From: Caenorhabditis elegans
Lineage: Eukaryota > Nematoda > Chromadorea > Rhabditida > Rhabditidae
DNA length: 64,000 bases
Assembly: GCF_000002985.6 (NCBI RefSeq)
Contig: NC_003279.8
Coordinates: 7,688,001 to 7,752,000, forward strand
Direction of reading: 5' to 3'
Below, piece after piece: positions 30,569 through 54,340 of this stretch (its first letter is position 1; every line of letters starts with the position of its first letter). The notes below the pieces were generated by a model. It ran no database searches, was not told the origin of the DNA, and saw nothing but the letters and a program-made list of their open reading frames with translations. The position numbers and the translations under genes are program-made.

Positions 30569-30898
30569 AAATCAAAACGAGACACACGAAAATATTGTGG
30601 GAGACGACGAGACGCAGATATACAAAAACTACTTCAAGTAAGAACGGACTGGCATTCAACATAGACCGCTTCTCAATTACCTGCCAACATACACCACCCA
30701 ATTTTTTGTTGTTGTTTTTCCGGCTTCTCTTCTGCAGAAGTCATTTCATAAATCAAACTGACACCTTCTCATACTAAAAACTAATAACATAAGTACTTAT
30801 CGTAGTCTTAAATATTATGATTGCAGAAGCTTCGTAGACTTAAAAAGCTGCAAAAATATATATTAAAAATTAAAAAAATTTCGCTCTCGGGTGGGCTC

Positions 30899-30934
<36 letters not shown>

Positions 30935-30962
30935 GCCTATTGCGCCCACAGGTAAAGCGCCA

Positions 30963-31907
30963 CAGGTTAGTGGCAGCTTAATGGCAGGTTAAAAGCCGCC
31001 AGCAGGTTAGTGTCAGCTTAGTATCAGGCTAAAAGTCGCTGTCAGGCTAAGAGCAGGTTAGTGTCAGCTTAGTGATTTTCGCTCAAATTTTGAGAAAAGC
31101 GCGTCAGGTGAACGGCGAGTAAGTGTCAGGTGATGGGTCAGTTGAGTGAAAATAAAAGTTTCAGAAACTGAGTGAAAGTTCATAAAAATTTGTTTTATGT
31201 TCATTCGTGTAAATTTCTGGAAAAAAAATTTCCAAAAATACAGTTTCGGGGTTACCACACCGGATCATGAACCGCGGCAGGTTAGTGGCAGCTTAATGGC
31301 AGGTTAAAAGCCGCCAGCAGGTTAGTGTCAGCTTAGTATCAGGCTAAAAGTCGCTGTCAGGCTAAGAGCAGGTTAGTGTCAGCTTAGTGATTTTCGCTCA
31401 AATTTTGAGAAAAGCGCGTCAGGTGAACGGCGAGTAAGTGTCAGGTGATGGGTCAGTTGAGTGAAAATAAAAGTTTCAGAAACTGAGTGAAAGTTCATAA
31501 AAATTTGTTTTATGTTCATTCGTGTAAATTTCTGGAAAAAAAATTTCCAAAAATACAGTTTCGGGGTTACCACACCGGATCATGAACCGCGGCAGGTTAG
31601 TGGCAGCTTAATGGCAGGTTAAAAGCCGCCAGCAGGTTAGTGTCAGCTTAGTATCAGGCTAAAAGTCGCTGTCAGGCTAAGAGCAGGTTAGTGTCAGCTT
31701 AGTGATTTTCGCTCGAATTTTGAGAAAAGCGCGTCAGGTTAACGGCGAGTAAGTGTCAGGTGATGGGTCAGTTGAGTGAAAATAAAAGTTTCAGAAACTG
31801 AGTGAAAGTTCATAAAAATGAGTTATATGTTCTTTCGTGTAAATTTCTGAAAATATAATTTCCAGAAATACAGATTGGGGGTTACCGCACCGGATCATGA
31901 ACCGCGT
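30963..31907. repeat. Three 315-bp tandem repeats plus degenerate copies
   Basis: Units start at 30963, 31278 and 31593 with CAGGTTAGTGGCAGCTTAAT. The first two are essentially identical; the third has scattered changes near its end. Two shorter degenerate copies follow around 31905-32185, sharing GGTTACCGCACCG and GTCAGGCGAGTGTCAGG. Matching 64-codon frames in units 1 and 2 are a by-product of the repeat. Confidence 0.95.
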
Positions 31908-32235
31908 CAGGCGAGTGTCAGGTTAAGAGCAGGCTAAGAACCGGCAAATGGTAACTGGCAGGTTACTGTCAGGCAAAGTTTTCTTGGCTCAAAAACATTT
32001 TTCAGTACGATCAGTTACGTTTTAGGGAAATTTTCGAAAAGTAAAAATGTCTGAAAATAAATATTTCCAGAAATACAGTTTTGGGGTTACCGCACCGAAT
32101 AATGAACCGCGTCAGGCGAGTGTCAGGTTAGGAGCAGGCTAAGAGCCGGCAAATGCCAACTGACAGGTTACTGTCAGGCAAAGTTTTGACTGACACACCA
32201 ATAATGAATGGATAAAACTGAATGTTAAAAAATAT

Positions 32236-33640
32236 TTTGCTTGGGTAGGAAATGTTTATTTTATCATTTTCCAAAGTTTTCATGGCTCAATCACACTCCT
32301 GACCAAAAAAATACCGCTGTCAATTATACCACTGTGTTCATAGAAAGTCAGTACTTCCAAATCCAAAGGGTCCCCCCTTATGAAAATTTTCTAAAAAAAT
32401 TTTTCGAAATTTTTTTTTGAAAACTTTTCATAATTTGATCAGATGTTATAGAAAAATGTAAAATTAATTGTTTTTTTCAGCTTCGATGTTCTGAACACGA
32501 GTTCAAACAAAAACCTGAGGTATTGTAGAACTCCTAAGTTCAAAAAAGGCATTTACTTTGAATGCGTATATCTCCGTGAAAAAAATTTTATGGCAAAGTG
32601 ATCAACTACAAAGTTGTTTATTTTAATCTAAAGTACAATTTTGTAATTGATGTATTTCATCAAAAAATTTCATGGTCGAGATAAGGTTGTGTGAAATGCA
32701 GCAACTTCATGCTTGTATTTTCTTCTTCTTTTTCTGTTTGTATCTCGGCCATCAAATTTTTTGATGAAATATCATCAACTACAAAGTTGTTCTTTAGATT
32801 AAGATAAACAACTATGTAGTTGATCACATTGCCATAATAGTAAATGCCTTTTTTGAACTTAGGGGTTCTACTGAACCCCAGGTTTTCGTCTGAAATCGTG
32901 CTCTGAACATCGAAACTAAAAAAAAAACAATCAAATTTACATTTTTCTATAACATATGAACAAATTAAGAAAAGTTTTCAAAACAAAAAATTTTCGAAAA
33001 AATTTTAGAAAATTTTCATAAGGGGGACCGTTTGGATTTTTTTCAAAAAAAAATTCAAAATTTTTTTTTTCAAAATTAGTCAAATATTTATCAGATATTG
33101 TAAAAATATGTTTCCCTAACTGCATCTATGTACTTTCTTGCCAAATGTGGTGCTTTCGAAAACTAAGAAACTGTAAAAACCTCTATTCCTCTAACTGATC
33201 TACCTACTATGCCAGTTTTTCGAAGTCATGTCCCACATCGGGCAAGCAAGATATCAAAAAACTGTCAACTACAAACTTGATCAGGTTGTTATAGAACATG
33301 TTTCATGTTTCATAGTTTCTTGCTTTCTGTGCAGAGTACGGAGATATCATAAGTCAAAAATAGTAATATTTGACTCATAATTAGGTGCTCCTACCTGCTC
33401 AGCCATCCGAGAAGGCAAAAAGTTACAATAAGTAATTTGTCAATCCCGTTATTCCTAACAACTTTTTAGTTGACAAGTTTTTCATATTTCAGCTGCCTGC
33501 GGAGCTAGAACGTTTTGGAAGTACTGACTTTCTATGAACAAGCCAAATCGACTGTTGTATTTTTTTGCCCAGGAGTATGATTGATCCATGAAAACTGTGG
33601 AAAATACTAAAATTTACATTTCCTACACAATCCAGCAGTA
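32236..33640. mobile_element. Long inverted-repeat element nested in the larger transposon
   Basis: Outer arms 32241-32357 and 33515-33631 are reverse complements (GTAGGAAATGT at the ends, inner edges TCAGTACTTCC and GGAAGTACTGA). Inner arms 32369 to about 32690 and about 32735-33029 also pair, both starting at a GGTCCCCCTTATGAAAA-type edge. The inner and outer left arms abut, while on the right they are split by about 480 bp of unpaired DNA (33040-33514), so that arm has probably received an insertion. No transposase is present. Confidence 0.75.
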
Positions 33641-34079
33641 TTAAATTTTTTTGGAAGAACAATTTTTTCCCAAAAATGTTTCATAAGGGGGGACCCTTAT
33701 CAAAATTTTAAAATAGTGGAAAATATTTTTAATTACATTTTACTGAACTCAATTTTTTTTCAATTATTTGTTGGTTTCAATCACAAATCACATTTACGAC
33801 TCAAAGTGATTTTTTCTTTTCTACGACTTCAATATAAGAGCGAGAAAGCATTTCAAAAGAAGCTCTAAACTCAGATGGCAACGACACTCCGAAATAACGG
33901 TAGCGCGCCCTCTTTAGCGTAAATCCTCCTCATTTTCGAAATTATTTTTTCACGATTTTTTCTTCCTTTTCTTCGATTTTTCTTTGTTTTCTTCATCAAT
34001 TCTTTGATTTTTCGGCAAAAATAATTATTTTCCGTATATTTATTGGTGTTTCAGCATTTTCGACATTGACGCGAACGAT

Positions 34080-34960
34080 TGGGATGGCACGGAAATGGCT
34101 GGATGAGAGAATTACCGGCGGTGGCGACAACATTGCTTCGCGAAGAACTAAAGATGGAAGAAAAGGTTAAAGTTGAACTCAAAAATGAAGTTATTTATAA
34201 CAATTTATGTTTTCAGAGTCGTGCAGAGTCGTCGCCTCTTCGACATTGACCACAAGCGTCCGCTAAACCACCTCATCCTTCCATTTTGATGAAAATCAAC
34301 GTAAAAAGGAACTAAAAAATGAAGAAGCTGTGAAGTAGATTCAAAAGAAAGTAGAAGAATCGAGCCTCACGCGAATACTTTGACAGGCAAACACAAGTTA
34401 ATAAGAGATGCGAACAATTCTCATCGATTGGTTCAGCGATGCCGTGAAAGAGTACAATTTCCAAAAGGAAACATTTCATATCGCGGTGATCCTCGTGGAC
34501 CTTGCTCTCCCAATGTTCAATATTGATAAAATGCGATTTCAACTGGTTGGAATGACGTCGATGATGATCATAGTGTATGTTCATAATAAAATATTTCAAT
34601 GTAATGTAAATTTTAAAAATTTTAGAAAATACGACGAAATCTTCCCACCAGTCGAGTACCCGACATTATTTTGATGGAGCGATTCTTGATTGGAAAGTTC
34701 GAATTTGTTGTCGCTAAGCCCACACTATCTTGGCTCGGATCATGATTTGCAAAGAGAATTAACCTTACAAAGTGAGTTTTAAAATCATAATTTTTTTAGC
34801 GTTTGGAAAAAACTAGCGATTTCTCTCAACTTTAACGTTAATTTTTTATAGAAAGATGCGGAATGCTGTCAAACTCCTCGAGCTGTCGCTGATAGATGAT
34901 CATTTTCTACGTTACCGCCCATCTGATGCTGCTTAGAATCACCGAATCAACAATTCGACC
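34080..34960 (+). pseudogene. Captured cyclin A-like gene fragment with introns
   Basis: The best exon, 34408-34576, reads MRTILIDWFSDAVKEYNF and continues with FNIDKMRFQLVG, the start of a cyclin box. A short intron (GTATGT to TTTTAG, ending 34625) leads to KYDEIFPP. After a frame slip the sequence continues VPDIILMERFLIGKFEFVV, hits a stop, then passes another intron (about 34771-34851) into KKMRNAV and LRYRPSDA before a second stop. This matches C. elegans A-type cyclin as I remember it, with a deletion between the FPP and VPD blocks. Retained introns mean it was copied as DNA, not by retroposition. It is inside the CACTA-like element, and frame slips and stops rule out a working cyclin. 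Confidence 0.75.
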
Positions 34961-35519
34961 AAGTGGCTGCTAATGATGGATCCAAGGAATCGGGAATCGA
35001 GACGAGGCTCACACTAAGCCGAAATATTAAATAATATTAATGTTTTTTTCCCTTTTTTCAGATTTATTTTTTCATTTTTCATGTTGAATAAACACAATTT
35101 TTGGCAATTTTTTTAATAAACAAACATTTTAATAAACAAAAAGCAGTATTCCCGGTATATATGGACCTAATACAGAATCTACAAGAACCTGACACAAACC
35201 TGACGTTGACCTGTTACCGGCCCGCGGCGGCTTAGTGTCAACTTGACAGCGGGCCGCGATTTCACCTGCCAGTTGTTCTCCATTCAGCAGCCAGCGACCT
35301 GCTGGCAGGTTGCCACTAACCTGACGCGCTTTACCTGTGCCACGGAAGCGGCCATTTTCTGATGGAACTGATAAAATGGCTAGCCTAAGGGAGTCCATCC
35401 AAGAGAAATAAGTGTACTATCAGGAGGACATAAGAGGCGACAAAAATGTGTAGAGGTAATGTATTTTGCTTTTTATTGGATGAAATACTCTCAGTAGCTT
35501 ACATTTATTGCAGTGGCTT

Positions 35520-52515: not shown

Positions 52516-52676
52516 ATTTGTACTCGTGCATTACAAACTCAGCGTTTAAAAAAACTGTTTATCATTAACTATATATAAAAAATACAGTTCGTCTGTCCGG
52601 AGTTTGTAGTCTATGTAGTCTTTGTAGTCTGTGACGTCACGCCCAAATTTCAGTGAGAATAGTGGACGTGGCACCC

Positions 52677-52766
52677 TTCGTGGTGAGACCCATCGTGGTG
52701 AGACCCTTCGTGGTGAGACCCTTCGTGGTAAGACCCATCGTGGTGAGACCCTTCGTGGTGAGACCC
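52677..52766 (+). repeat. Six 15-bp tandem repeats
   Basis: The unit is (T/A)TCGTGGTGAGACCC, six perfect-length copies with one internal A-for-G change. Because 15 is a multiple of three, both strands are open (RGET(H/L) on plus), which does not make it coding. Confidence 0.95.
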
Positions 52767-52772
52767 AAAATG

Positions 52773-53745
52773 TTGGCGGGAAATTCAAATTTTCAGTAAA
52801 AAAAATTTTTGGCGGGAAATTCAAATTTTAAGGGAAAAAATTTTTGGCGGGAAATTCAAATTTTCAGTGAAAAAAATTTTGGCGGGAAATTCAAATTTTA
52901 AGTGAAAAAAATTTTTGACGGGAAATTCAAATTTTAAGTGAAAAAAAATTTTGGCGGGAAATTCAAATTTTCAGTAAAAAAAATTTTTGGCGGGAAATTC
53001 AAATTTTCAGTGAAAAAAATTTTGGCGGGAAATTCAAATTTTAAGTGAAAAAAAATTTTTGGCGGGAAATTCAAATTTTCAGTGAAAAAAATTTTGGCGG
53101 GAAATTCAAATTTTAAGGGAAAAAATTTTTGGCGGGAAATTCAAATTTTAAGTGAAAAAAATTTTGGCGGGAAATTCAAATTTTAAGTGAAAAAAAATTT
53201 TGGCGGGAAATTCAAATTTTAAGTGAAAAAAAATTTTTGGCGGGAAATTCAAATTTTCAGTGAAAAAAATTTTGGCGGGAAATTCAAATTTTAAGGGAAA
53301 AAATTTTTGGCGGGAAATTCAAATTTTCAATAAAAAAAATTTTGGCGGGAAATTCAAATTTTCAGTGAAAAATATTTTGGCGGAAATTTAAATTTTCTGA
53401 GAAAAATATTTTGGCGGAAATTTAAATTTTCTGAGAAAAATATTTTGGAGGGAAATTTAAATTTTCTGTGAAAAATATTTTGGCGGGAAATTTAAATTTT
53501 CTGAGAAAAATATTTTGGCGGGAAATTCAAATTTTCAGTGAAAAAAATTTTGGCGGGAAATTCAAATTTTAAGGGAAAAAATTTTTGGCGGGAAATTCAA
53601 ATTTTCAGTGAAAAAAATTTTGGCGGGAAATTCAAATTTTCAGTGAAAACAATTTTGGCGGGAAATTCAAATTTTCAGTGAAAAAATTTTAGCGGGAAAT
53701 TCAAGTTTTAAGTGAAAAAATTTTTGCCGGGAAATTACAATTTCT
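52773..53745 (+). repeat. ~28-copy 33-36-bp minisatellite with E2F-like boxes
   Basis: The unit is TTGGCGGGAAATTCAAATTT followed by TMAGTGAAAAAAATTT. Copies vary in A/T run length; a subset at 53370-53520 reads GGCGGAAATTTAAATTTTCTG and is more diverged. Nearly every unit holds GGCGGGAAA, which equals the core E2F/DP recognition site. Confidence 0.95.
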
Positions 53746-53755
53746 GAGAAAAATC

Positions 53756-54340
53756 GAGAAATGTCTGCAATGTTCCAGAATTTTCTAGAAAATTCGGGAA
53801 AACTCTGGAATATTCCAGAACTTTCTAGAAAAATCGAGAAATGTCTGCCATGTTCCAGAAGTTTTCTAGAAAATTCGAGAAAATTTCCCGAATGGACCAG
53901 AATTTTCTAGAAAATTCTAGAAAGTTCTGGAATGGTCCAGAATTTTCTAGAAAATTCGGGAAAACTCTGGAATATTCCAGAACTTTCTAGAAAATTCGAG
54001 AAAATTCCGGAATGGTCCAGAATTTTCTAGAAAATTCGGGAAAACTCTGGAATATTCCAGAACTTTCTAGAAAAATCGGGAAAAGTCGGCAATGTTCTTG
54101 AACTTTCTAGAAAATTCGAGAAAATTCCGGAATGGTCCAGAATTTTCTAGAAAATTCGGGAAAACTCTGGAATATTCCAGAAGTTTCTAGAAAATCCGAG
54201 AAAGTTCTGGAATGGTCCAGAATTTTCTAGAAAATTCGGAAAAATTCTGGAATATTCCAGAACTTTCTAGAAAAATCGGGAAAAGTCTGCAATGTTCAAG
54301 AACTCTCTAAAAAATTCGAGAAAATTCTGAAATGTTCAAT
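53756..54340 (+). repeat. Tandem array of heat-shock-element-like pentamers
   Basis: The array is built from TTCTAGAAAATTCGAGAAAA and GGAATATTCCAGAACTTTCT modules. It contains about 13 TTCTAGAA palindromes and long runs of alternating nTTCn/nGAAn pentamers in perfect five-base register, the definition of an HSF-binding element. Confidence 0.95.

Follow-up and report, generated by a model that had tools for sequence, protein, structure and literature searches.

A probable CACTA-like transposon in a tRNA-Asn gene of Caenorhabditis elegans and the association of its relatives with tRNA genes and tRNA-like repeats

Introduction

A tRNA-Asn(GTT) gene on chromosome I of Caenorhabditis elegans (insertion site at chrI:7.7189 Mb) is split by a 4,393-bp element with the ends CACAGG...CCTGTG and a 2-bp CC duplication on either side. 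Is such a break an accident, or is it what elements of this kind regularly cause? A sequence-only reading of the 64,000-nucleotide stretch analysed here (the window) had described a transposon whose insertion could be reversed to the base, and had stressed that selection usually protects such a Pol III site.

Targeting of Pol III genes as a safe harbour is a textbook strategy of retrotransposons, and Ty1, Ty3 and the Dictyostelium TRE elements all prefer these genes. They are, however, integrase-dependent retrotransposons inserting beside the tRNA sequence, whereas the window element is a DNA transposon lying inside the tRNA gene. Among cut-and-paste DNA transposons we found one precedent for Pol III gene targeting, Dada (see Discussion). 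A full-text literature search returned no earlier report of tRNA-gene targeting by CACAGG elements.

Materials and Methods

Elements were gathered by their terminal 13-mer, blind to the flanks. Matches to this pattern were compared with the chance level given by the reversed pattern (170 versus 67 at one mismatch; 34 versus 7; 43 versus 4). The one-mismatch listing is complete for C1 and C2, and covers exact variants only for C5, C6 and most of C4. There were 27 two-ended CACAGGT elements among the matches listed, and 17 two-ended CACAGGC elements served as controls. Some listed one-mismatch pairs (e.g. C2:3045434-3045851) were left out of the fetched set, and the CACAGGC pair C5:12373143-12376995, the body of which contains L014, was left out of the controls.

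Since Rfam (E up to 5) found only four interrupted tRNAs in loci L027-L040 (L028, L032, L033 and L040; the rest fell under the cut-offs), the flanks of each element were joined at the empty site. The joined flanks were analyzed by ARAGORN and by a two-box test (A box and B box, with no more than two mismatches, spanning or bordering the empty site). The shuffled controls preserve base content only in the ARAGORN test and sample dinucleotide steps in the two-box test. Below 80% stringency ARAGORN lost its discrimination, with calls in 62/540 shuffles at 75% and 134/540 at 70%.

Results

In the unedited window ARAGORN called no tRNA, and Rfam matched only part of one (30890-30946 on the minus strand, 42.9 bits, covering model positions 9-63 of 71). 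The left flank ends in ...ATTGCGCC and the right flank reads CCACGGAAGC; no exact direct repeat at the element ends is longer than CC. Once the flanks were joined with a single CC, ARAGORN called a tRNA-Asn(gtt). Compared with five intact tRNA-Asn genes of this genome, the closed 73-nt gene carries a single difference, a substitution in the 3' acceptor strand. Thus the Asn(GTT) gene proposed from the sequence is indeed restored, and the proposed ends, the 2-bp CC duplication and the transposon nature of the insert were borne out to the base. The coordinates are collected in Table 1.

Table 1. Parts of the split tRNA-Asn gene and of the inserted element, in window positions
Feature	Position	Strand	Basis
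3' 65 nt of split tRNA-Asn(GTT) gene, including left CC copy (30945-30946)	30882..30946	-	Rfam RF00005 match; genomic copies; alignment
Non-autonomous DNA transposon, 4,393 bp, ends CACAGG...CCTGTG	30947..35339	.	inverted ends; 13 two-ended copies ending at corresponding bases
Left terminal inverted repeat, 43 nt, 81% complementary to right one	30947..30989	+	inverted-repeat pair
315-bp unit, 3.1 copies, in which most copies of a 32-nt CAGGTTAGTG-like subterminal motif lie (14 in the element)	30963..31937	+	
Long imperfect palindrome; many other copies lack part of it	32241..33630	.	
Captured genomic cyclin A gene fragment, intron sequence kept, reading frame broken	34145..34927	+	
Right terminal inverted repeat	35297..35339	-	inverted-repeat pair
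Right copy of 2-bp target duplication (CC)	35340..35341	.	flank comparison
5' 8 nt (acceptor strand) of split tRNA-Asn gene	35342..35349	-	sequence; alignment

The 13 two-ended copies of this family (the window copy counted) end at corresponding bases, some of their 13-mers carrying one mismatch, and none runs past the proposed ends. Perfect matches to the terminal 13-mer within the window are confined to the two ends of the element; at up to three mismatches there are nine matches, about the number expected by chance. All but one of the 14 copies of the 32-nt subterminal motif lie within the left 1.3 kb of the element. The cyclin A fragment matches its parent gene (contig 3, 9.107-9.109 Mb) in three stretches of 81-86%; pieces of host genes carried by elements of the set include cyclin A and a NUP210-like gene.

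No transposase was found in the window element. A search for PF02992 (Transposase_21) found nothing and was likewise silent in 14 control genomes. Pfam was run on 18 of the 35 frames (120 aa or longer) listed for the loci examined, and none was a transposase, albeit genes made of short exons would escape such a screen; the listing omits the cyclin-family copies L009, L010, L014, L016-L019 and L022-L024. The matches above cut-off (MATH, DSL and C2_N_APX, in L012 and L020) were taken for neighbouring host genes. Nested within one locus, L021, is a 3.7-kb element with CTCGGC ends and a 3-bp GTT duplication (by eye), whose exons resemble a CMC transposase by eye, without Pfam support. Two genomic relatives of the nested element have no CACAGGTAAAGCG end (up to one mismatch) nearby, in an end list complete for C1 and C2, and its exons matched none of the other fetched loci at E 0.1 (L021 itself and the overlapping L065 excluded).

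The set as a whole comprises at least five end-types, CACAGGTAAA[G/C]CGC.... The 2-bp duplication anticipated for other elements with the same ends was found in 22 of the 27 CACAGGT elements; a further 3/27 have 3 bp. The remaining two (L035 and L039) show neither, which counts against a targeting reading.

The association with tRNA genes and tRNA-like repeats runs through the CACAGGT elements and is absent from the related CACAGGC class. Strict ARAGORN called a tRNA on the joined flanks of 11/27 CACAGGT pairs, compared with 0/17 CACAGGC pairs and 0/540 shuffles. The two-box test was passed by 22/27, 0/17 and 10/2,700, respectively (Fisher P = 8e-8 for the contrast between the classes); its score and cut-off were chosen after the flanks had been seen, a weakness from which strict ARAGORN is free. 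At three mismatches the test accepted 24/27 CACAGGT sites, but also 1/17 CACAGGC sites and 134/2,700 shuffles. The isotypes restored are Asn, Pro, Leu, Thr, Ile and Arg for the window element's own family, and Phe, Val (twice), Ala and Gly for other families. For four further targets insert-free paralogues match across the junction (L036 at 98-100%, L037 at 99%, L014 at 99% and L016 at 88-97%). Besides tRNA genes of many isotypes, the targets include dispersed tRNA-like repeats, and entry is mostly in the 5' half.

Several observations speak against targeting. Five of the 27 sites (L011, L014, L017, L021 and L034) fail the two-box test with 3 to 6 mismatches, and for 9 of 22 unpaired ends of this type a search allowing one mismatch finds neither an A box nor a B box (a count that omits L026, with a degenerate end, and L059, whose end is the same as that of L034). 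Many targets are, moreover, old tRNA-like repeats, the Pol III transcription of which is putative.

The 65-nt tRNA-Asn piece has 20 other matches in the genome, 18 of them at 98% over all 65 nt, and the loss of one copy was therefore probably cheap. Insertion into a Pol III gene was correctly recognized from the sequence, but the stress on a site protected by selection did not hold, given these other copies. The elements examined as a rule sit in or beside tRNA genes or tRNA-like repeats, so that the tRNA-Asn insertion looks like a targeted event rather than an exceptional one.

Discussion

Overall, the window element is very probably a non-autonomous cut-and-paste CACTA-like transposon residing in one of some 20 tRNA-Asn genes, and belongs to a set that targets mainly tRNA genes and tRNA-like repeats, in or just beside them, its link with Pol III being a correlation. 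Its CACTA-like build consists of CACAGG inverted repeats, 2-3 bp duplications and subterminal repeats. Members of the CACTA/EnSpm-Mirage-Chapaev (CMC) group are known for CACT(A/G) ends, 2-3 bp duplications, subterminal repeats and host-gene capture. The CACAGG elements share the CAC- start, the duplication length, arrays of subterminal repeats and host-gene capture; they differ in the fourth base of the end (CACAGG versus CACTA/CACTG), and no transposase was seen in the elements examined. We know of no tRNA preference in the CMC group. MIRAGE1 of C. elegans is named in one study among the families with many insertions (PMC5850821).

In this reading the transposase would come, or once have come, from elsewhere and would direct the element into the 5' half of Pol III genes, making a joint with a 2-bp stagger there. 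What it recognizes is probably no fixed DNA site but either the initiation machinery of Pol III or the open A-box region. The redundancy of tRNA genes would offer a cheap harbour. We give even chances to the broader proposal that a Caenorhabditis CACTA-like lineage evolved the ability to recognize assembled Pol III genes in general. Several non-autonomous families would then share one targeting system, which would take tRNA genes of many isotypes as well as tRNA-derived repeats and would cut for the most part in the stretch from transcription start to anticodon stem.

The position of the insertions bears on a competing proposal, possible though doubtful in our judgment, that what the transposase reads is the DNA itself, by sequence or shape (an A-box-like motif, GC content or the tendency of tRNA genes to form hairpins), without any Pol III protein. 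At 21 of 22 scored sites the insertion lies at or before nt +36, in keeping with the main reading; the figure is the same whether the site list has L021 or L035. In favour of the competing proposal, the A-box and B-box motifs are common to tRNA genes and tRNA-like repeats, and the target flanks are richer in GC than the control flanks (49% versus 33%), a difference in base composition that the shuffles nevertheless preserve. A site logo of 19 two-bp sites (orientation entered by hand; L014 and L021 in, L011, L017 and L034 out) revealed a weak G after the duplication in 14/19, and sequence reading is also what has been proposed for Dada (PMC8869645). On the other hand, the same logo gave no consensus at the duplicated bases, the insertion points are scattered between about -10 and +44 in tRNA coordinates, their duplicated dinucleotides are unrelated, and a single family has struck six isotypes.

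That the elements are nematode members of the Dada superfamily itself is very improbable. The likeness is in the target: Dada elements are DNA transposons found within tRNA genes, with the A box and anticodon regions favoured (PMC3706591, PMC8869645), and insertion into small-RNA genes, characteristic of Dada, is likewise seen for the CACAGG elements. Yet Dada duplications are 6-7 bp long, no inverted repeats have been found at its ends, and each family uses mainly one RNA gene, in contrast to the 2-3 bp duplications, the clear 43-nt inverted repeat and the many isotypes, tRNA-like repeats and spread positions found here; the duplication length and the inverted repeats led us to reject membership. 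A further comparison is Pokey of Daphnia, described as a DNA transposon preferring a multicopy RNA gene, that for 28S rRNA (PMC3706591), and as a piggyBac element (PMC3849761); it resembles the CACAGG elements as a DNA transposon in a multicopy RNA gene, and differs in its Pol I target and its superfamily. A chance hit by a preference-free transposon, a kind that does exist in this genome as the CACAGGC class has no tRNA association, is just as improbable and was rejected by the two-box contrast (22/27 versus 0/17, with few shuffles passing) and the strict ARAGORN calls.

The insertions may explain some of the broken tRNA genes of the C. elegans genome. If assembled Pol III genes are indeed what is recognized, DNA transposons would have invented tRNA-gene targeting a second time, independently and in a protein-guided form. 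A CACTA-like set accepting many isotypes and tRNA-like repeats in the C. elegans reference genome would allow the question of sequence or machinery to be tested in an animal for which ample tools exist.

A tRNA-Asn gene split by the window's element

The window's element has no direct repeat longer than CC at its ends. Closing up its flanks with a single CC restores a tRNA-Asn(gtt) gene (ARAGORN), which in 72/73 nt equals five intact tRNA-Asn genes from elsewhere in this genome (a subset of the 20 other genomic matches), the single mismatch falling in the 3' acceptor strand. Since these independent uninterrupted copies agree, the base-exact interruption proposed in the sequence-only reading (ends, CC duplication and restored gene) is confirmed; as a single case, it is correct and ordinary.

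The genome search (100,286,401 bp in 7 contigs, the window being C1:7688001-7752000) yielded 29 matches of the left end and 18 of the right end, own copy and pieces counted in. Among the 13 two-ended copies in the family, 12 are flanked by exact 2-bp duplications, whose sequence varies, and the remaining one by TAA. A tRNA is restored at six of the 13 joins (Asn, Pro, Leu, Thr, Ile and Arg; ARAGORN).

Coordinates of features in the window and in locus L039
Feature	Position	Remarks
tRNA match	30890-30946	minus strand
Window's element	30947-35339	
Variable palindrome in window's element	32241-33630	
Remaining 8 nt of split tRNA	35342-35349	
NUP210-like gene fragment in L039	L039:2522-3418 = C5:19095246-19096142	97% identical to C1:6450257-6450991

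Two end-classes in one genome

A wider set was gathered blind, by a genome-wide listing of terminal 13-mer variants, in which CACAGGTAAAGCG has 46 exact occurrences, CACAGGYAAACCG 34 (reversed pattern, 7) and CACAGGCAAAGCG 43 (reversed pattern, 4). From these, 31 further facing pairs were fetched (14 CACAGGT and 17 CACAGGC), one additional pair, enclosing the CACAGGT element L014, being excluded. Five of the 14 new CACAGGT joins give tRNAs (Phe, Val, Val, Ala and Gly), vs. none of the 17 CACAGGC joins (ARAGORN). Duplications are of 2 bp in 22 of all 27 CACAGGT elements, of 3 bp in three and of neither length in two; those of the 17 CACAGGC elements are of 3 bp in 15, 2 bp in one and 4 bp in one. 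The two end-classes are therefore unlike in both duplication length and target. The CACAGGCAAAGCG family (L041-L057) shows no preference for tRNAs; its members are mostly ~1.67 kb long, although L046 reaches 8,135 bp, and their duplications are mostly of 3 bp.

Strength of the tRNA preference

Under strict ARAGORN settings, a tRNA spans the site in 11/27 CACAGGT vs. 0/17 CACAGGC elements and 0/540 base-shuffled joins; at 80% stringency, the counts are 16/27, 0/17 and 23/540. Because many targets have decayed, we also used a two-box score (an A box and a B box spaced as in tRNAs), devised after the flanks had been seen, which at ≤2 mismatches picks out 22/27 CACAGGT vs. 0/17 CACAGGC elements (Fisher P = 8e-8) and 10/2,700 shuffles, and at ≤3 mismatches 24/27, 1/17 and 134/2,700. 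GC content is 49% in the target flanks vs. 33% in the control flanks.

Five of the 27 CACAGGT elements fail the two-box test at ≤2 mismatches. L021 lies in a half tRNA-like sequence with the A box retained, and L034 ~80 bp away from it; L017 adjoins a tRNA-like repeat that other elements use as target; L014 sits within a CACAGGC element, in a stretch scoring 3 mismatches; and the flanks of L011 contain no convincing tRNA.

Unpaired ends (n = 31) lend weaker added support, judging by their box counts. Of the ...CGC-type ends, 8/22 have an A or B box without mismatch ≤75 nt outside, vs. 0/9 others and 48/3,100 shuffles; within one mismatch, the figures are 13/22, 1/9 and 814/3,100. No tRNA at all was found beside several of them (L068, L074, L078 and L083).

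Dispersed tRNA-like repeats as targets

Nine degenerate joins were submitted as one genome query, with the best 40 of 425 candidates scored. Insert-free copies run across the junctions of L016 (at least 32 rows, 88-97%), L036 (at least three, 98-100%), L037 (at least four, 99%) and L014 (at least one, 99%); the other five joins have no row among these best 40 of 425. Two aligned L036 copies and one L037 copy confirm the 2-bp duplications base by base. Such copies show several of the targets to be dispersed tRNA-like repeats. One repeat (C6:2801815, C3:302665, C1:13694928 and others; at least 32 scored copies) has a conserved 5' leader followed by a tRNA-like A and B box, and several elements are inserted in its leader or 5' end.

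Structure and cargo of the elements

The window's element has 43-nt terminal inverted repeats (81% complementarity), a 315-bp unit repeated in tandem (3.1 copies) behind its left end, and three frames of ≥80 aa. The sole frame put to Pfam, the open frame 34408-34674, matches Cyclin_N (E 3e-12), with cyclin A2 its best match among solved chains. The DNA at 34145-34927 aligns in three stretches (81-86%) with a contig 3 locus at 9.107-9.109 Mb, presumably cya-1 as the parent gene; as these stretches take in intron sequence, the cargo is a captured gene piece, not an mRNA piece. In L039, a same-ended CACAGGTAAACCG element, a 299-aa frame matches a contig 1 locus (97% over 245 residues). The frame at that locus in turn hits NUP210 Ig-like domain 9 (E 1e-9). 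Together with the cyclin cargo, this makes more than one event of host-gene capture by elements with these ends.

L021 contains a nested 3.7-kb element (L021:733-4441; C2, ~2.019-2.023 Mb) with CTCGGC ends and a 3-bp GTT duplication, seen by eye; its multi-exon frames resemble a CMC-type transposase by eye, with no Pfam match, and it has two relatives (C2:2277791 and C1:2651177). Elsewhere in the window, three minisatellites abut at 52673-54337 (units of 15, 35 and 40 bp in ~6, 28 and 15 copies).

Target recognition

The DNA-transposon group known from small-RNA genes is Dada, described as making 6-7 bp duplications, with terminal inverted repeats not found and with family-specific RNA genes that are hit at the A-box and anticodon (PMC3706591; PMC8869645). 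A survey of transposons in C. elegans wild strains names MIRAGE1, and the word 'tRNA' is absent from its main text (PMC5850821). Among the papers listed in full-text searches, with Repbase notes and most subscription papers outside their scope, no title or abstract start describes nematode tRNA-gene targeting by such elements.

With respect to the tRNA (numbering accurate to ~3 nt), 21 of the 22 two-box-scored insertion points fall from about -10 to +34, and one at +44. Read in tRNA orientation, 19 sites have a G directly after the duplicated bases in 14 cases and no consensus at the duplicated bases themselves. This lack of consensus, together with the scatter of insertion points, makes a fixed DNA site an unlikely target; a mechanism that recognizes the region where Pol III starts would be the better fit. 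Overall, members of this CACTA-like set have inserted for the most part within or next to tRNA genes and tRNA-like repeats, a pattern that is not ordinary.
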